Origin: an uncultured bacterium
GTDB taxonomy: Bacteria; Bacillota; Clostridia; Oscillospirales; Oscillospiraceae
DNA length: 40,108 nucleotides
Assembly: GCA_949293165.1 (NCBI GenBank)
Contig: CASFCW010000007.1
Span: 1 to 40,108 of the forward strand
Direction of reading: 5' to 3'
Shown here piece by piece: positions 8,230 through 35,566 of this stretch (its first letter is position 1; every line of letters starts with the position of its first letter). Both the position numbers and the translations under genes were made by a program. The notes below the pieces were generated by a model that was not told the origin of the DNA, made no database searches, and worked only from the letters and a program-made list of their open reading frames with translations.

Positions 8230-8785
8230 CAGATCTCCCCCTTTCTCCGGCGGCTGCGGTCAATCATCAGCGCACAGATCACGGCCCGCTCCCCCGGCGG
8301 CCTGCGGAGGAAGTCCCCCGGCAGGGCGCCGCAGCGGGCCAGCAGGTTGGCGGCCGCCGCCAGATCCGGCCGCCTGGTCAGTTTTTTTCCAGCTCCTCCA
8401 CGGCGGCGTCGATGGCCTGGGCCTGGCGGCTGTCCTCCTCTACGGCCATCACCGATCCGGCGCCATAGCCGTGCAGCAGGTCAATGGCCCGGCAGATCTT
8501 CTCCACCTCGCCTTTCCGCAGCACCTTTTTCAGCGCCTCCGCCGGGGTGGGGCAGTTCATGCGATCCTGATACCAGGCCGGATCTTTCAGCTCCGGATGG
8601 TTGACCGTGGCGGCCAGGATCAGCTGCAGGTTGGCCTCCCGCTCCCGGCACAGCTTCACCAGCCGGTCGTAAGGCAGCTCCCGCAGCTGCAGCTCCAGCC
8701 CCAGCCGGGGCAGGCGGACGGTGCGCTCCTCCGGCTCAAACTCCGGCAGGTCCAGCAGGGAATTGATGACCTGTCCCTTTTTCAT
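8229..8785 (-). CDS. Tail assembly chaperone, long form made by -1 frameshift
   Basis: The 135-codon upstream gene (8378-8785) ends with a slippery heptamer A_AAA_AAC at 8387-8381, in the correct frame, directly before its TGA. Moving to the -1 frame at the C of 8381 gives 50 further sense codons, without a stop, to a TGA at 8231-8229 that overlaps the tape measure start. The extension (TRRPDLAAAANLLARCGALPGDF...AVICALMIDRSRRRKGEI) is helical and basic. The product is 185 residues. In phages of this kind both forms coat the tape measure protein during tail assembly (lambda gpG/gpGT principle). Confidence 0.87.
8349..8387 (-). promoter_or_regulatory. Programmed -1 ribosomal frameshift signal
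   Basis: On the minus strand, heptamer AAAAAAC (8387-8381) is followed by a 6-nt spacer (8380-8375) and then a perfect 8-bp GC-only stem: GGCGGCCG at 8374-8367, a 10-nt loop, and CGGCCGCC at 8356-8349. Slippery site, spacer and stem have the standard geometry. The stop codon of the short form lies in the spacer. Confidence 0.85.
8378..8785 (-). CDS. Tail assembly chaperone, short form (XkdN-like)
   Basis: A 135-residue protein starting MKKGQVINSLLDLPEFEPEERTVRLPRLGLELQLRELPYDRLVKL, which resembles XkdN of PBSX and other tail chaperones that precede the tape measure. Its ATG overlaps the end of the tube gene. The zero-frame ending is ELEKN. It lies exactly where the tail chaperone is expected: after the tube gene and before the tape measure. 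Confidence 0.88.
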   Translation of the reverse strand: MKKGQVINSLLDLPEFEPEERTVRLPRLGLELQLRELPYDRLVKLCREREANLQLILAATVNHPELKDPAWYQDRMNCPTPAEALKKVLRKGEVEKICRAIDLLHGYGAGSVMAVEEDSRQAQAIDAAVEELEKN

Positions 8786-9225
8786 CCCTGCACCTCGATC
8801 TCATCCAGCAGCTGCATCCGGGTAAAGGTGAACGCTGCGGTGATCTGTCCCACCGTGGCCGCCTTCCAGTCGGCCAGGGTCAGATCGTCAAAGCTCACGT
8901 TATACAGGGCAATCCTCTCCGCCCCGTAGCTGTCGGGGTCTTTCAGTGCGGAAAGCAGGGTGAACCGACGATCCACACCATCCTGCATCCCCTCCAGCCG
9001 CTGGAGCATCCCGCTGTCCACGTGGTACATGGTGATGCTGCCGGAGCCCTCGCCGTTGGTGGCCTTGTGGTCGGTCATAAACTGGCCGCACAGGTTGATC
9101 TTGCTTTTGCTCTGGCTGATCTTGGCCTGGAAGCCGGTGGTTTCCGCCACCTTCTCCCCGTCCAGGTACAACTCGCCCCAGGTACCGTTAATCACCCGCT
9201 TGGCGCTGTCGATATTTCTTGCCAT
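8782..9225 (-). CDS. Tail tube protein, XkdM-like (DUF2001)
   Basis: A 147-residue protein starting MARNIDSAKRVINGTWGELYLDGEKVAETTGFQAKISQSKSKINLCG. This INGTWGELYLDGE...GFQAKI pattern marks the XkdM family of contractile-tail inner tube proteins. The rest is beta-rich. It sits directly after the sheath gene with a 12-bp gap, as in PBSX. It forms the inner tail tube that passes DNA. Confidence 0.92.
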   Translation of the reverse strand: MARNIDSAKRVINGTWGELYLDGEKVAETTGFQAKISQSKSKINLCGQFMTDHKATNGEGSGSITMYHVDSGMLQRLEGMQDGVDRRFTLLSALKDPDSYGAERIALYNVSFDDLTLADWKAATVGQITAAFTFTRMQLLDEIEVQG

Positions 9226-9237
9226 TCTGATTCCTCC

Positions 9238-10341
9238 TTACAGACAGGAAACGCTCAGGGAGAAGCTCTCCATAGCGTCCAGCAGCCGGCCTCCGCAGGA
9301 AATGCCCACCCAGTCTCCGGTCTGATACTCCTTGATCTCCTGATCCGTCATGGCGGAGGTGTCCACCCCATGCTCCGCCAGCCACTTTGTCTGGGCGTCC
9401 AGGTCGATCTCCGCGTAGGATTCTCCGGGGTTCAGCACCCCGGCCCCCTCCAGATAGGTGAGATAACTCTGGATGGCCGTCACCAGCACCAGCTTATTCT
9501 CGTAGGTGTTGGGGTACTGGCCCACATACTCATTCTGGATGGTGGTGCGGAGGTAGTAGGAGATGAGATCCATCCCCTCCACAATTTTGATCTTCCGCCA
9601 ATCCTCCCCCATCCCGGGGGCCACGGTGGTCAGGGAGTTCACCGCCCGGACGATCTTTGCCTGCTGGCCGTCATGGGTCAGGATCAGCTTGCCGGCGTTG
9701 ATAGCCTCTTCCTGCTCCTCCAGAGTGCGGGGGGTGACGGCGGTCAGCTCAGGCAGCACAGTGTAGGTGCCGCTCATGCTCACCGGCAGACCAGCCAGAA
9801 TCCCGGCCACCCGGCTGAGATACTCCCCGGCGGTGTAGGTCTTGCTCCCGTCGGTCAGGGTGTCGTCCTCCTCGCAGAAATTGACGGCGCCCATGTAATC
9901 GGGAGGCGTGCTAGCGTTGGCCAGCACCACTTTTTCGGTGAAATACAGGTCCCGCCGGTTCTTGACCCAGTTCACCAGCACCGCTTCCTCCCCGGCGGTC
10001 AGGTCGGGAGGGGGCGCGATATAGTCCACCGTCATGGTCTCCACCAGCTTCAGACCTGCCTCCAGGGCGGTGGTGTCGCCGGTAGAGGTACCGATCACCA
10101 CCGCCACCACCTTGCTGGGAGTGCCCCGGTCGGAGCCGGTAAAGGCCCGCTGCAGATAGGCCTGGTTGTCCGCCCCCAGATCCGTGGGGATCATGGCAGC
10201 GGAGGACAGCACGTGCAGGCCCTGAGCCTTTGCGTCCCGCACAAAGACAGCCACGATGCCTTTCTTGCTCCGGCTGGCCGCCGATTTCGCCGCTGCCTGA
10301 AATTGAATGGTCAGGCCGGGCAGTCCGATAGGGGTTGCCAT
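9238..10341 (-). CDS. Tail sheath protein, XkdK-like
   Basis: A 367-residue protein that matches contractile sheath proteins: an N-terminus IGLPGLTIQFQAAAKSAASRSKKGIVAVFVRD, the middle NWVKNRRDLYFTEKVVLANASTPPDYMGAVNFCEEDD, then AGILAGLPVSMSGTYTVLPELTAVTPR, and a C-terminus with LILTHDGQQAKIVRAVNSLTT and WRKIKIVEGMDLISYYLRTTIQNEYVGQYPNTYENK. These residues are typical of the conserved C-terminal sheath domain. Its presence makes the phage a myovirus-type. It is short for a sheath, close to the PBSX type. Confidence 0.93.
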   Translation of the reverse strand: MATPIGLPGLTIQFQAAAKSAASRSKKGIVAVFVRDAKAQGLHVLSSAAMIPTDLGADNQAYLQRAFTGSDRGTPSKVVAVVIGTSTGDTTALEAGLKLVETMTVDYIAPPPDLTAGEEAVLVNWVKNRRDLYFTEKVVLANASTPPDYMGAVNFCEEDDTLTDGSKTYTAGEYLSRVAGILAGLPVSMSGTYTVLPELTAVTPRTLEEQEEAINAGKLILTHDGQQAKIVRAVNSLTTVAPGMGEDWRKIKIVEGMDLISYYLRTTIQNEYVGQYPNTYENKLVLVTAIQSYLTYLEGAGVLNPGESYAEIDLDAQTKWLAEHGVDTSAMTDQEIKEYQTGDWVGISCGGRLLDAMESFSLSVSCL

Positions 10342-31019: not shown

Positions 31020-31358
31020 TTGGACGCTGCCATTTTTGTGCAAAATATCAAAAAGTATTGCTCGCAGCGAAATGTAGCGCCCACCGTTGCCTGTAAAGAA
31101 AGTGGGGCAGGGAAAGATCTGATAAATCAGATTGAACGGCGTGGGAGCTTACCATCCATAGAAAAAGTCCATCTACTAGCTCAGTATCTGGGGGTCACCA
31201 CAAGCGACCTCTTGGGTGAAAAAAGAGAGTCCACCGTCAATGACGATGGACTCACAGAGGCGGAGCGAACCCTTATTGCTCGCTTCCGGCATCTGACGCC
31301 AGAGGATCAGGACGCGGTTCTGCGGATAGTTCAGTCCGCTGCTGACAAGCTTGGATAG
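31020..31358 (+). CDS. HTH (XRE) repressor-like regulator 3
   Basis: A 112-residue protein with a TTG start at 31020 (GGAG upstream). The HTH spans about residues 5-65: FVQNIKKYCSQRNVAPTVACKESGAGKDLINQIERRGSLPSIEKVHLLAQYLGVTTSDLLG. The tail (LTEAERTLIARFRHLTPEDQDAVLRIVQSAADKL) is the usual helix of small phage repressors. It lies downstream of the palindrome at 30934-30953 and is likely its ligand (inference). Confidence 0.85.
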   Translation: MDAAIFVQNIKKYCSQRNVAPTVACKESGAGKDLINQIERRGSLPSIEKVHLLAQYLGVTTSDLLGEKRESTVNDDGLTEAERTLIARFRHLTPEDQDAVLRIVQSAADKLG

Positions 31359-31440
31359 CCTGGAGTGCAGCGCACATAAGACGGCTGGGGTCTTCGCTGG
31401 TGCGGATCAGATCCAGCAGCATGGCTTCTTTGTCTGTCAT
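31273..31440 (-). CDS. Small phage protein of unknown function
   Basis: A 55-residue protein, MTDKEAMLLDLIRTSEDPSRLMCAALQAIQACQQRTELSAEPRPDPLASDAGSEQ. A GAGGGG site precedes the ATG at 31440. The first 35 residues are helical; the rest is antisense to the regulator's 3' end (86 bp overlap). It has its own promoter (31475-31503). The function is unknown. Confidence 0.55.
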   Translation of the reverse strand: MTDKEAMLLDLIRTSEDPSRLMCAALQAIQACQQRTELSAEPRPDPLASDAGSEQ

Positions 31441-31474
31441 GGTCGCTACCCCTCTCTATGTAGTATGTGTATTT

Positions 31475-31503
31475 ATTTTAGTACGTTTGTTCTATTTGGT
31501 CAA
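31475..31503 (-). promoter_or_regulatory. Minus-strand promoter with a LexA-like box
   Basis: TTGACC at 31503-31498 and TAAAAT at 31480-31475 with a 17-bp spacer. Between the boxes, at 31481-31492, lies GAACAAACGTAC, one base off the Gram-positive SOS box pattern GAAC-N4-GTTC. The small gene at 31273-31440 follows. Confidence 0.6.
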
Positions 31504-31529
31504 GAACATTTTTTCGACAAATAAAAATT

Positions 31530-31546
31530 GTGTCCAATTCGGACAC
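31530..31546. repeat. 17-bp palindrome, copy G
   Basis: GTGTCCAATTCGGACAC, intergenic, 20 bp before the start of the SHOCT-like gene. This copy could be a regulatory site for that gene. Confidence 0.85.
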
Positions 31547-31565
31547 AGGTTCAGGGGTGGTATAA

Positions 31566-32036
31566 ATGGGATTCATGGCGCATGAAATTGCAATCGAACT
31601 CGCATATACAAGGGATGACTGTTACAACGCAGCTAAAGAAGCACTAGTTCAGGTTGGTTTTCCATTGAGGAGTGAAAACGAAACTGCTGGTGTCCTGCAG
31701 GCCAACGTAAAGGCGAAAATCACCTCAACGACATGGGGAGATGTCGTAACGGTGACAGTGTCCAGTATGGATAACGGGATGGCTCGCGTCGTTGTAAATT
31801 CAACAGCAAAAGCCGCCTCTCTTCTCGCCGGACGGCAGCAAGTTAAGAATGTGGATGCATTTACCAACGCCCTTACATCGGCACTCGAAAAATACCAAAA
31901 GATTTCCTCTTCGGCCCCTGCGCCGGCAAACATAAGCGCAGTGGAAGAAATTAAGCAGTACAAAGAGCTGCTGGATATAGGTGCAATAACGCAAGAGGAA
32001 TATGAGGCAAAGAAAAAGCAAATTCTAAATCTTTAA
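31566..32036 (+). CDS. SHOCT-domain-like protein
   Basis: A 156-residue protein. The N-terminal 110 residues are a beta-rich domain (MAHEIAIELAYTRDDCYNAAKEALVQVGFPLRSENETAGVLQANVKAKITSTTWGDVVTVTVSSMDNGMARVVVNSTAK), and the end (ISAVEEIKQYKELLDIGAITQEEYEAKKKQIL) is a clear SHOCT motif (short C-terminal domain, L-G-I-IT-EEFE-KK-LL). SHOCT-containing proteins are often bacterial and of unknown role, some oligomerise. It lies in the accessory region after the palindrome. There is no signal peptide. Confidence 0.75.
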   Translation: MGFMAHEIAIELAYTRDDCYNAAKEALVQVGFPLRSENETAGVLQANVKAKITSTTWGDVVTVTVSSMDNGMARVVVNSTAKAASLLAGRQQVKNVDAFTNALTSALEKYQKISSSAPAPANISAVEEIKQYKELLDIGAITQEEYEAKKKQILNL

Positions 32037-32096
32037 ATACGCCTACCGACTACATTTGTATGCCCAACTCGAACAAAAACTTGGGAGTGGATTATA

Positions 32097-33014
32097 TTGA
32101 CCAGTGATAAGGACTATCGTACATTCACAAAGCCGGCAGAGTTGCATAAAGCCATCAACACCTTGAGAGGTATTGTCGCCGGCATATCTACTGACAAAGA
32201 GATCGGACATGATGAGATTCAAGAACTAGCCCACTGGTGTGAGGTGCATGGTTATCTCAGAGACCGTCATCCGTTCTCTGAGATCCTCCCCATTGTGGAG
32301 TCGTCCTGCGCTGATGGGGTGATATCTGAGAATGAGGCCAAAGACATTTTGTGGGTGTGCAGTAGTTTTGCGGATAGTGGTGCTTATTATGACTCTGTCA
32401 CATCGACAATTCAGTTTCTATCTGGCATGATTCACGGTATTATGGCGGATGGAGAGCTGCAGGACCAGGAGATTGATATGCTCCAGGCCTGGATCAACGC
32501 CAATGATTTTCTGGCAGGCACATATCCATTCGATGAGATCAACAGCTTGCTCAGTACGATCATGGCCGATAGGAAGGTCGATGAAGATGAGCGTAATAGC
32601 CTGCTGGCCTTTTTTAGCAATCTGATTGAGTTCAAAAACTCCTTCAACCTGGTAGAGAAAGACTTTACTGATCTTCGGGAAAAGTATTCTGTGGACGGGA
32701 TCTGTGCCAGCTGTCCAGAAATCACATTCCAGGGGAAGATCTTTTGCTTCACCGGAGAATCCTATCGAGGGACACGGAAAGAGTTGGCCGATGTTGTGGA
32801 GCGGCTCGGTGGTACGTTCCGTGGATCAGTGTCGTCAAAGACAAATTACCTTGTCGTCGGAAATGCTGGTAATCCTTGCTGGGCTTACGCCTGCTACGGA
32901 CGCAAGATTGAGGAAGCCGTCCGCCTCAGAAAAGAGGGGGCTGGTGTCGTAATTGTCAATGAGACAGATTTTTGGGATGCGGTGGAGGACATCTCCGCTG
33001 GAATCACCCAATAA
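32097..33014 (+). CDS. Two TerB-like repeats fused to a BRCT domain
   Basis: A 305-residue protein with TTG start at 32097 after GGGAG. The N-terminal half holds two similar helical modules: residues 20-90 (RGIVAGISTDKEIGHDEIQELAHWC..ILPIVESSCADGVISENEAKDILWVC) and 108-178 (LSGMIHGIMADGELQDQEIDMLQAWI..INSLLSTIMADRKVDEDERNSLLAFF), each with acidic D-x-D/E-like loops as in TerB. Residues 209-297 (ITFQGKIFCFTGESYRGTRKELADVVERLGGTFRGSVSSKTNYLVVGNAG...AVRLRKEGAGVVIVNETDFWDAV) match the BRCT domain of DNA ligases. BRCT binds phosphopeptides or DNA ends. It could act in DNA damage or defence; no experimental role is known to me. Confidence 0.85.
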   Translation: MTSDKDYRTFTKPAELHKAINTLRGIVAGISTDKEIGHDEIQELAHWCEVHGYLRDRHPFSEILPIVESSCADGVISENEAKDILWVCSSFADSGAYYDSVTSTIQFLSGMIHGIMADGELQDQEIDMLQAWINANDFLAGTYPFDEINSLLSTIMADRKVDEDERNSLLAFFSNLIEFKNSFNLVEKDFTDLREKYSVDGICASCPEITFQGKIFCFTGESYRGTRKELADVVERLGGTFRGSVSSKTNYLVVGNAGNPCWAYACYGRKIEEAVRLRKEGAGVVIVNETDFWDAVEDISAGITQ

Positions 33015-33072
33015 CACTATATCTTGTGTAAATTCCGGTGGGCAATGTTGATATATAGAGTCGGCCTGTCCT

Positions 33073-33089
33073 GTGTCCAATTTGAACAC
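33073..33089. repeat. 17-bp palindrome, copy H
   Basis: GTGTCCAATTTGAACAC, intergenic, just beside the terminator at 33088-33121 and after the BRCT gene. Confidence 0.8.
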
Positions 33090-33121
33090 AAAAATCCCCC
33101 ATCCCGAAGGATGGGGGATTG
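33088..33121 (-). terminator. Terminator of the dUTPase-fold membrane gene
   Basis: Arms TCCCCCATCC and GGATGGGGGA with a CGAA loop at about 33095-33118; on the minus strand it is followed by a run of five T. It lies 12 bp past the stop of the gene 33133-33942, so it ends that transcript. Confidence 0.85.
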
Positions 33122-33132
33122 CTCTCAATTCA

Positions 33133-33942
33133 TTACGGCGCCAGGAACAGGATCAGGCCCGACAAAATCAGGCAAAGGATGGGGACGACCCACAGATAGT
33201 CAAACTTGCCTTTGCTGCGGCCCATGACAATGTTCATCAGTGCAGCCAGGAAACCCAATGCTCCCAGCGTAACCACATTATACAGCAGGAACTGCCAGCT
33301 GGACACCGCCTGCTTGGTCAGCTCAATGTTTACATTCAGGATCGTAAAGATCGCCACAAAGATGGTGAGGATGGAGATGACATTCCCGTATACACTCTTC
33401 TCCAGGCTCTTGATATCCTGAACCTTATCCCCCAGGGATTGAATCTGGGCGATATACTGTGACTTATAGTCCGCCATGCCCTTGAAGGAGAACTCCCGCT
33501 GGAATGTCCCATCATAGGGCTGATCCGGCTCCCGGCCCAGATTCTCTATCATCAGGGTCGTATATTTCTCGCCCTTCTCCAAAAGAATCTCATCCTGAGA
33601 AATATTTGTCAGGCGGAAATAGATCATCGTCCTGTGGCCCGGCTGATAAACCGGCGCATCCATGGTAAGCCCCATGCGAATCCGTCCATTTTTCAGCACA
33701 ACATGTCCAACCATGTCGTTGCCCAGCCAGACCTCCTCCATGGAGGAGACAAACACAGATTCTCCGGGGGCGAGGGTGCAGCTGTCCGCCGGCCTTCCAT
33801 CCCGCATAAAACAGTCTGCACGCAAATCATACCCGATGTTGGTGACACAGGTCGCATCCGCATATGCGATATACGGTGGCTGGGGATCCGCGTCCAGGGT
33901 TGTCCGTAACAGTGCCCGTATGTCTCTATCGAGCAACAGCAC
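33133..33942 (-). CDS. dUTPase/dCTP-deaminase-fold protein with C-terminal membrane segments
   Basis: A 269-residue protein from GTG 33942 (GGGAG site 8 bp before it; a GTG at 34002 would add 20 residues). N-terminal domain: IAYADATCVTNIGYDLRADCF (GYDLRA, residues 37-42, is the dUTPase/dCTP-deaminase motif 1), LAPGESVFVSSMEEVWLGNDMVGHVVLKNGRIRMGL, APVYQPGHRTMIYFRLTN, and KGEKYTTLMIENL. The motif around KNGRIRMG lacks the Ser of the RSSLAR box, and the expected catalytic Glu/Asp near PGHR is absent, so it may only bind nucleotides. Then a helical linker (about 154-183) and three membrane segments (about 184-204, 216-239, 248-268). It has its own promoter and terminator next to the integrase. 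It could be a membrane effector with a nucleotide sensor (inference). Confidence 0.75.
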   Translation of the reverse strand: MLLLDRDIRALLRTTLDADPQPPYIAYADATCVTNIGYDLRADCFMRDGRPADSCTLAPGESVFVSSMEEVWLGNDMVGHVVLKNGRIRMGLTMDAPVYQPGHRTMIYFRLTNISQDEILLEKGEKYTTLMIENLGREPDQPYDGTFQREFSFKGMADYKSQYIAQIQSLGDKVQDIKSLEKSVYGNVISILTIFVAIFTILNVNIELTKQAVSSWQFLLYNVVTLGALGFLAALMNIVMGRSKGKFDYLWVVPILCLILSGLILFLAP

Positions 33943-33980
33943 ACAAACCACTCCCTTCCTGTATGACTGTTCTACTTGAT

Positions 33981-34009
33981 ATTTTACCGCACATTTTACC
34001 ACAGGTCAA
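33981..34009 (-). promoter_or_regulatory. Promoter of the dUTPase-fold membrane gene
   Basis: TTGACC at 34009-34004 and TAAAAT at 33986-33981 on the minus strand with a 17-bp spacer. The gene starts 39 bp further on. Together with the terminator this makes an independent monocistronic unit, likely active in the lysogen. Confidence 0.8.
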
Positions 34010-34045
34010 GAACTGTTGCAACCTCCGGTTGAAAGGAGCTGCCCC

Positions 34046-35566
34046 ATGAATCACGAAACCACATCTCTCTCCGGCCTGGACGCCGCCGTCTACCTGCGGA
34101 AGTCCCGCATGGAGGAAGGCATGGCCACCGATGAGGTGCTGGCCAAACACCAGAAAACCCTGTACGACTACGCCGCAACCCAGGGCATCCACATCCTGGA
34201 GGAGTATCCTGAGGTGGTCAGCGGAGAATCTCTCTATGCCCGCCCTCAGATGCTGCGCCTACTCCAGGATGTAGAGGATGGCAAGTATGACGCCGTCCTG
34301 TGCATGGATCTGGACCGGCTCTCCCGCGGCCGCATGAAGGATCAGGGCATCATCCTGGACGCCTTCCGGGAGTCCGGCACCCTCATCATCACGCCGGAGA
34401 AAACCTATGACCTGTCGGATGAGATTGATGAAGAATACGCGGAGCTGAAGACCTTTATCTCCCGCCGGGAGTATAAGATCATCAACAAGCGGCTCCGCCG
34501 GGGACTGAAGCAGACGATCCAGGAGGGCTGCTATGTGGCGAACGCGCCATATGGGTACCGGAATGTGACCATCGACCGGAAGCCCACCCTGGAGATCTAT
34601 GAGCCGGAAGCAAAATTCGTCCGCATGATGTATGACCTCTATCTGCAGGGGTACGGCTGTGACACGATTGCTCACCACATTAACGCCCTGGGCGCAAAGC
34701 CTCACCGCGCGGATGAATTCTCCCGGAATACGGTCCGCCACATTCTGAAAAATCCGACCTTTGCCGGGAAGGTCGTGTGGGATCAGAAAACTCACATCCG
34801 GAAGGGTACGAAAGGGAACCTCAAGCACATCACGATCTACAACCCCAGGGAGAAGTGGACGATCGTGGAGGGCCTCCACCCCGCCATCATCGACCAGGAG
34901 ACCTATGACAGGGTGCAGGCCCGGTTTCTGGGGCGGTATCATCCGCCCAGGAATGACGGGACGGTACGCAGTTCTCTGGCCGGTCTGGTCAAGTGCGCCA
35001 AATGCGGCCAGAACATGCAGCGGATGGTCATGAAGATGGTGCCCTATTTGCTCTGCACCAGGGCGGGCTGCTGCGCCTCCACCAAATTCCCTCTGGTGGA
35101 GGAAGAGATCCTCAATGCCCTGGAGGAGACCATGCACCGGCTTGTCCAGCAGCCGACGAGCGTCCCCGGCGTGGACACCTCAGTGGCGAAGACAGCCCTG
35201 GCCGCTTTGGCCGGGGAACTGGCCGCCGCCGATCGGCAAAAGGCCAGGCTCTATGAGCTACTGGAGATGGGAGAATATGATCTCCCCCTCTTCCGGGAGC
35301 GGATGGCCGTGCTGAAGGAAAAGCGAGCCGGCCTGGAGCGCCGGCAGGCTGAGCTGCAGCGGGAACTGGAGTCCATGCAGATGACCAACCCCTCCGCCCT
35401 GGCCGAACAGATCCGCACCGTCCTGGACGCCTATGGCCCGGCAGACGCCGCCCACCGCAACGCCCTGCTGAAATCCGTCCTTAAAATGGTCTGGTACACC
35501 AAAGAAAAAAAGAGCAAACCCGCTGATTTCCACCTCACCTATGTGTTCCGGTCTGACATCTTATAA
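34046..35566 (+). CDS. Large serine recombinase (integrase)
   Basis: A 506-residue protein from ATG 34046 (AAAGGAG site). Resolvase domain: AAVYLRKSRMEEGMATDEVLAKHQKTLYDYA with catalytic Ser20, then VVSGESLYARPQMLRLLQDVEDGKYDAVLCMDLDRLSRGRMKD. Recombinase domain (about 175-290: APYGYRNVTIDRKPTLEIYEPEAKFVRMMYDLYLQGYGCDTIAHHINALG..ILKNPTFAGKVVWDQ). Zinc ribbon with CAKCGQNM (Cys317/320) and LCTRAGCC. A coiled-coil tail follows. It integrates the phage; its 3' end reaches the junction with the interrupted host gene. Confidence 0.96.
   Translation: MNHETTSLSGLDAAVYLRKSRMEEGMATDEVLAKHQKTLYDYAATQGIHILEEYPEVVSGESLYARPQMLRLLQDVEDGKYDAVLCMDLDRLSRGRMKDQGIILDAFRESGTLIITPEKTYDLSDEIDEEYAELKTFISRREYKIINKRLRRGLKQTIQEGCYVANAPYGYRNVTIDRKPTLEIYEPEAKFVRMMYDLYLQGYGCDTIAHHINALGAKPHRADEFSRNTVRHILKNPTFAGKVVWDQKTHIRKGTKGNLKHITIYNPREKWTIVEGLHPAIIDQETYDRVQARFLGRYHPPRNDGTVRSSLAGLVKCAKCGQNMQRMVMKMVPYLLCTRAGCCASTKFPLVEEEILNALEETMHRLVQQPTSVPGVDTSVAKTALAALAGELAAADRQKARLYELLEMGEYDLPLFRERMAVLKEKRAGLERRQAELQRELESMQMTNPSALAEQIRTVLDAYGPADAAHRNALLKSVLKMVWYTKEKKSKPADFHLTYVFRSDIL

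Follow-up and report, generated by a model that had tools for sequence, protein, structure and literature searches.

The window (the whole stretch of 40,108 nucleotides analysed here, from an uncultured bacterium of the family Oscillospiraceae) encodes a protein in which a dCTP deaminase-like (DCD) domain is fused to a membrane part. That such a membrane-fused DCD protein, which we call DCD-TM, is real and has the architecture claimed in the original prediction was confirmed by observation. From sequence comparison, we read its DCD domain as a pseudoenzyme that still binds something. Our proposal, to which we give a little less than even weight, is that DCD-TM protects against phages as a membrane protein encoded by a single prophage gene: its dead DCD domain would detect a pyrimidine nucleotide, or a phage DCD or dUTPase, and set off the membrane part. 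The case for a role in anti-phage defence comes entirely from genomic location, from which we infer protection.

The gene and its relatives

The longest open frame of the DCD-TM gene covers positions 33133-34002 of the reverse strand. Within it, the GTG at 33942 appears to be the best start, because a GGAG motif lies 8 nt upstream, because relatives (e.g. L010 and L013) begin at the aligned M-[IL]-L-x-D, and because the alternative start at 34002 would fall upstream of the -10 element. The gene had been predicted to have its own promoter and terminator, and a site scan found both, as a promoter-like and a terminator-like site (Table 1). The scan returned 3 promoter sites (shuffle mean 1.2) and 2 terminators (shuffle mean 0.8), that is, only slightly more than in shuffled sequences; the pair in question flanks the gene at its ends. 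Between the window copy and its near-copy L014, 7 codons differ synonymously and 2 non-synonymously (dN 0.003, dS 0.038), which argues for purifying selection on the gene.

Table 1. Positions of the DCD-TM gene, its parts and its neighbours in the window
Feature	Position	Strand	Basis or remark
DCD-TM gene, 269 aa, GTG start	33133..33942	-	open frame, Pfam and 20-row family alignment A2
DCD (dCTP deaminase-like) domain, read as a pseudoenzyme, residues 1-155	33478..33942	-	Pfam PF22769 and position table
Arg110, at the position of the catalytic Glu	codon 33613-33615	-	position table
Helical linker, residues 156-187, heptad-like a/d pattern	33382..33477	-	Y159, E181, Y185 and N187 invariant in 20 rows
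Three predicted membrane segments, residues 183-209, 217-241 and 246-269	33136..33396	-	hydropathy
Promoter-like site TTGACC-N17-TAAAAT	33981..34009	-	10/12 matches
Intrinsic-terminator-like hairpin, 3' of the stop codon	33093..33120	-	12 pairs
Serine integrase, divergent neighbour; start 34046 also possible	34016..35566	+	Pfam Resolvase and Recombinase
TerB/BRCT-like cargo gene, on the other side of DCD-TM	32097..33014	+	phrog_3989; weak match to PADLOC PDC-S48
Phage repressor-like HTH protein, bounding the slot on its far side	31020..31358	+	family searches; look-alikes in some siblings (by eye)

Relatives were collected by a pattern scan, which gave 20 loci from genome contigs (of 198 stretches) and 4 loci from viral contigs (of 52). 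Alignment A2 consists of 20 full-length rows, namely the window protein and 19 relatives, which are 32-53% identical to it and come from Bacillota (Oscillospiraceae, Lachnospiraceae and others), Actinomycetota (Bifidobacteriaceae and Coriobacteriia) and viral contigs. Two proteins were left out as copies: L014 is a 99% copy of the window protein and L021 shares 255 of 263 residues with L022. Further omissions were L011, L012, L013, L034 and L035, which come from the same contigs as L017, L020, L022, L010 and L017, respectively, and the short forms L033 (a frame of 163 aa) and L037 (174 aa).

These two short forms end after the DCD domain, and the other 20 of the 22 distinct relatives carry the membrane part. 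The frame in L033 (8001-8492, +) lacks membrane segments, and that in L037 (3150-3674, +) is found on a viral contig just ahead of a terminase; by eye, both have Arg at the position of the catalytic Glu. A decoy subunit, a soluble form and a decayed copy are candidate readings of these frames; in the pore reading given below, the helix-free L037 form on its viral contig might poison the trimer as a decoy.

Full-length DCD-TM is rare in the bacterial family of the window. A search of 300 of its genomes gave 8 matches, of which 4 are DCD-TM, including that of the window's own genome, and the other 4 are ordinary DCD genes. In a tree of the 20 A2 rows, the five Actinomycetota rows are split from the Bacillota rows by a branch with support 100/99, and the Faecalibacterium row L019 groups with the Lachnospiraceae row L024 (94/95). 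No match was found in a plasmid search; a search of phage records gave 3 matches, each annotated as an ordinary dCTP deaminase; two of the records belong to the same phage. The PADLOC models had no match to the window protein at E<=1, and at E<=0.1 the 20 A2 rows matched only CorA, PDC-S05 and PycTM, in 1-3 rows each (best E = 0.012).

Domain architecture

The window protein matches the Pfam DCD family PF22769 with 32.1 bits, above the cut-off of 27. A search of the PDB gave a dCTP deaminase as the best match, both with the single window sequence (E = 0.00048) and with a profile of the 20 family rows (E = 1.3e-15). All 20 A2 rows match Pfam DCD (E<=0.01) as well as TIGR02274; the score of the window protein for the latter, 41.5 bits, is below the equivalog cut-off of 92.8 bits. 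With the dUTPase family PF00692, the window protein had no match at E<=1, and 5 of the 20 rows match it at E<=0.01. It is on the basis of these profile matches that the window protein is predicted to have the DCD fold. The claim of a dUTPase/DCD fold is supported by the profiles; of the GYDLRA motif, YDL alone is shared by all 20 rows.

The original prediction also included a helical linker followed by three membrane segments, and these are borne out by a heptad pattern and by hydropathy peaks. For the 32 residues of the linker, the heptad pattern on the family-mean hydropathy was matched by 66 of 10000 shuffles. Three C-terminal, non-overlapping hydrophobic peaks are present in each of the 20 A2 rows, which had been picked as full-length; one row, L024, has one extra marginal peak within the DCD domain.

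We were not able to assign the membrane part to a known family. No Pfam family was present in more than 3 of the 19 linker and membrane rows, and a comparison with one PycTM protein gave no detectable relation (hhalign probability 0.3%). A profile of the linker and membrane part (alignment A3) was searched against 391 genomes of the class at E<=0.01. Six genomes matched, namely the window's own, G066, which has a DCD-TM gene, and four with weak matches (E 0.0025-0.006), one of which (L044) is a chemoreceptor-like protein on reading; L042, L043 and L045 are the remaining three. At convincing scores, no membrane part without the DCD domain was found in the 391 genomes. In the viral contigs, the same profile recovered three loci that were already known.

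Catalytic positions and conserved motifs

To read the catalytic columns, A2 was set against four canonical DCDs from the window's bacterial family. We take the catalytic Glu to be Glu138 and the catalytic Arg to be Arg115 of the E. coli dCTP deaminase, and the Asp of the DPG motif to be the acidic residue of the third dUTPase motif in bifunctional forms. In the column of the catalytic Glu, all four canonical DCDs have Glu and all 20 A2 rows have Arg. The Asp of the DPG motif is replaced by Gln in 13, by Phe in 5 and by Tyr in 2 of the 20 rows. In the SS pair, every row has Asn in place of the first Ser; the second Ser is kept in 19 of the 20 and is Gly in the window copy. Furthermore, in the final GKYQGQ motif Glu replaces the second Gln throughout. 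The catalytic Ser and Glu positions had been described as replaced, and the alignment agrees for the Glu and the first Ser in all 20 rows and for the second Ser in the window protein.

On the other hand, the catalytic Arg (R89) is invariant in all 20 rows, as are N85, R87, H103, T105, Y143, G145 and E150. Of the 29 invariant positions of A2, the DCD domain accounts for 24, the linker for 4 and the membrane part for a single one. Beyond YDL, the invariant residues are mostly found within N-[SG]-R-[IL]-R-x-G-[LF], Y-x-P-G-H-x-T and Y-x-G-[TAS]-[FY]-x-x-E. In the enzymes, the conserved DCD motifs form the pocket.

Since the catalytic Glu and the DPG Asp are gone in all rows while the Arg and residues of the same motifs are invariant, the domain looks like a conserved pseudoenzyme. 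Its putative ligand need not be dCTP or dUTP, because several pocket residues have changed, and binding itself is not assured, because the SS pair and the last pocket Gln are among the changed residues. An ordinary enzyme role was rated low in view of the catalytic positions. Alternatively, the protein might be an enzyme of nucleotide metabolism anchored in the membrane, such as a deaminase, a dUTPase or some other NTP hydrolase, whose chemistry has changed; the retained catalytic Arg would fit, and the change from Glu to Arg could go with a new reaction. We consider this quite improbable in view of the loss of both acidic residues in all 20 rows, the patchy distribution, and the membrane part in most of the relatives, which would be unusual for an enzyme that acts on the nucleotide pool.

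Prophage setting

The element that hosts DCD-TM reads as a myovirus-like prophage; genes for terminase, portal, protease, capsid, sheath, tail and replication were recognised in it by eye from translations. The gene is found at the prophage end, between the TerB/BRCT-like cargo gene and the divergent serine integrase; the position beside an integrase had been claimed correctly. The repressor-like protein at 31020-31358 (+) matches the PADLOC capH model, a regulator model of a defence system, with E = 2.4e-8.

A related integrase is present, at E<=1e-120, in 23 of 400 genomes of the bacterial family, the window's own included. Its 5' side was fetched for 13 of the other 22 genomes (integrase identity at least 61%), with L079, L080 and L083 shortened by contig ends. 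The cargo on this side varies between sibling elements. By eye, the repressor-like HTH protein bounds the slot in L072, L074, L075 and L084, and L078 and L079 have different HTH proteins; no such protein was recognised in the stretches in view from the other loci. For the cargo scan, which gives raw counts without a background rate, ten proteins were taken from nine loci, namely L014 and eight sibling elements. It found AbiH and PD-Lambda-1 in L072, PD-Lambda-1 in L073, and DEDDh-BRCT proteins that match the PADLOC candidate PDC-S48 in L077 and L084. Other cargo includes BRCT (L074, 5' of the integrase), DUF4236 (L076), vWA-TerF (L080) and HSDR_N (L014); in L082 an AAA_21 protein was scanned, whose place relative to the element is ambiguous. 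In L014, the stretch with DCD-TM and the integrase is 97% identical to that of the window, and the adjoining cargo differs. The original prediction regarded the side of the integrase as a usual place for defence genes, and known or candidate defence genes do lie beside the related integrase in some sibling elements. Window positions 31020-34016 together with the siblings L072-L084 show a slot with changing cargo (AbiH, PD-Lambda-1, DEDDh-BRCT, TerB/BRCT).

Neighbourhoods of the relatives

Outside the window, the neighbourhoods are diverse. Neighbours were named by Pfam for a selection of loci only. DCD-TM lies ahead of a terminase in L010 (by eye), in a region with a terminase and a portal in L027, after a GH25 lysin in L032 and together with a tyrosine integrase in L036; several copies are within phage structural regions (by eye). 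ToxN is encoded directly upstream in L011, an Oscillibacter ER4 contig (E = 2.1e-45), Abi_2 directly upstream in L031 (Collinsella), and an AAA_21 protein close by in L030. Abi_2 (PF07751) and AbiH (PF14253) both belong to the Abi families that PMC10121019 counts as defence. Many copies have no defence gene as company, and about six, e.g. L012, L013, L015, L016, L023 and L024, lie between apparent housekeeping genes (by eye); neither these nor the copies within structural regions are in defence islands.

In an all-against-all comparison of the neighbours in 23 loci, the most recurrent family was the serine integrase, in only 3 loci (the window, L014 and L025), two of which belong to the same element. 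We were thus not able to find a partner gene common to the DCD-TM loci in this rough comparison. Weakly conserved or short partners could be missed by it, because genes were called by a simple longest-frame method, which gave some wrong frames and missed DCD-TM itself in L023 and L033. A consistent tie to lysis or morphogenesis, named at the outset as an observation that would speak against the prediction, did not emerge from the survey, in which contexts varied and some copies lay in structural regions.

These settings bear on another explanation, namely that DCD-TM is a membrane protein for superinfection exclusion or otherwise related to lysogeny, in which the DCD domain is a mere trimeric scaffold or a regulator of prophage decisions and senses no nucleotide. 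The prophage-borne copy with its promoter-like site beside the integrase, the copies on the viral contigs L010, L036 and L037 and the phage-like neighbours in L027 and L032 would all be expected, and staphylococcal phage dUTPases act as signalling proteins (PMC5593958). We find this explanation somewhat unlikely, since the invariant residues cluster in what we understand to be the pocket motifs of the enzymes, which is more than a scaffold needs, and since several copies are on chromosomes amid apparent housekeeping genes.

Gain and loss as a single-gene unit

Two chromosomal sites show the gene as a unit that can be gained or lost, because sister genomes lack it there as a unit. In G066, DCD-TM lies beside a gene read as pcp. 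The sister genome G202 lacks about 1.03 kb of G066, which hold just the DCD-TM gene, and G907 lacks a larger piece with the same right edge. Both edges of the 1.03-kb piece carry near-identical terminator-like hairpins: in L012 (about 9180-10255 of the G066 locus) DCD-TM lies between the two, and G202 has one hairpin and no gene. It looks as if the gene had entered at a terminator. The same locus contains a repeat of about 220 bases (8300-8518), of which there are many copies in G066 and in several genomes of its genus.

At the second site, the gene is present in G046, in a unit of about 955 bases, and in G939. Here G278, G928 and G942 hold 357, 778 and 222 other bases, respectively. Those in G278 and G928 contain skipping-rope RNAs. 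In L141, a chromosomal site occupied by DCD-TM in a sister genome, two such RNAs (Rfam RF02924; 657-745 and 1216-1313, both -) flank a small PBECR2-type nuclease gene (775-1197, -), the arrangement of G928; it is possible that they form an RNA-protein pair. At this site L142 likewise carries a pair of skipping-rope RNAs, and its frames of at least 45 codons include no PBECR2-type gene.

Because no conserved partner was found and the gene is absent as a unit of about 1 kb at two chromosomal sites, DCD-TM probably acts alone. A selfish cargo gene, or a toxin-like membrane protein silenced by another factor, would also be gained and lost as a single-gene unit, and ToxN and Abi_2 are neighbours in two loci; an explanation of this kind, with no role in phage defence, seems highly improbable to us, as the rough neighbour comparison showed no recurrent antitoxin-like partner.

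Comparison with known systems

DCD-TM resembles the dCTP deaminase and bifunctional DCD-DUT family (PF22769, TIGR02274) in that the domain match runs from M-L-x-D at the start to Y-x-G-x-[FY] at the end. It differs in the Arg at the catalytic Glu, the missing Asp of DPG and the added C-terminal membrane part. Defensive deaminases of the AvcID type have an unrelated, zinc-dependent fold. According to PMC10511110 (AvcID) and PMC10121019 (a dCTP deaminase system), such proteins touch the dC/dU nucleotide pool in phage defence, as DCD-TM might, but are active enzymes, whereas DCD-TM lacks the catalytic residues. Pycsar PycTM (PMC11224242) and CRISPR Cam1 (PMC10808066) share with DCD-TM the coupling of a nucleotide-responsive part, here a proposed one, to membrane helices. 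However, the sensor fold of DCD-TM is a different one, and we found no signal-making partner near its gene.

We know of no membrane part in the signalling dUTPases of staphylococcal phages. Like DCD-TM in our proposal, they are trimeric phage proteins of the dUTPase fold used as a switch; unlike it, they bind the Stl repressor (PMC5593958). A dUTPase is listed among predicted, unvalidated defence domains in PMC13092281. A literature search, which included the accessible text of PMC13092281, PMC12487901 and PMC10121019, gave no published description of a DCD domain fused to membrane helices.

Two further DCD fusions were seen. L117 (975-2180, -) encodes a protein of 401 aa with a guanylate-kinase-like domain, a DCD domain, a helix and, by eye, one C-terminal membrane segment. 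Like DCD-TM, it has a changed residue at the Glu position (Leu by eye) followed by a helix and a membrane segment; unlike DCD-TM, it has the extra N-terminal kinase and a single segment. No full-length relatives of it were found: plasmids, phages and viral contigs gave at most partial matches. L118 (1339-2946, -) is a metallophosphoesterase-DCD fusion of 535 aa; of its neighbours, one matches a phosphoribosyltransferase weakly, under the cut-off, and another looks dihydroorotate-dehydrogenase-like by eye.

Proposed function

In the defence reading that we propose, DCD-TM would confer superinfection immunity or cause abortive infection. Its DCD-fold domain would be cytosolic and probably a trimer, as in the enzyme relatives, and would have lost the deaminase and dUTPase chemistry while keeping the conserved pocket. 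The trigger bound by this domain might be a (deoxy)pyrimidine nucleotide that infection alters in level or chemistry, or a subunit of a phage DCD or dUTPase. The signal would then pass via the coiled-coil linker to a bundle of membrane helices, three per subunit, which would disturb the membrane so that the infection is stopped. The trimer, the ligand and the membrane action are all inferred. A more specific form, which we regard as unlikely, is a ligand-gated pore: the DCD trimer would read the pyrimidine deoxynucleotide pool, or a phage-modified nucleotide, and open a nine-helix bundle with no cyclase or second messenger.

Conclusions

The Arg in place of the catalytic Glu, shared by all A2 rows, the conserved motifs and the membrane module are direct and cheap handles for a test of these ideas. 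Furthermore, the stretch 5' of the integrase is a place to look for new defence genes. If our proposal is true, DCD-TM would be a compact way of coupling the sensing of the nucleotide pool to the membrane within one protein, and gut Bacillota and Actinomycetota would have made a receptor out of a familiar metabolic fold.
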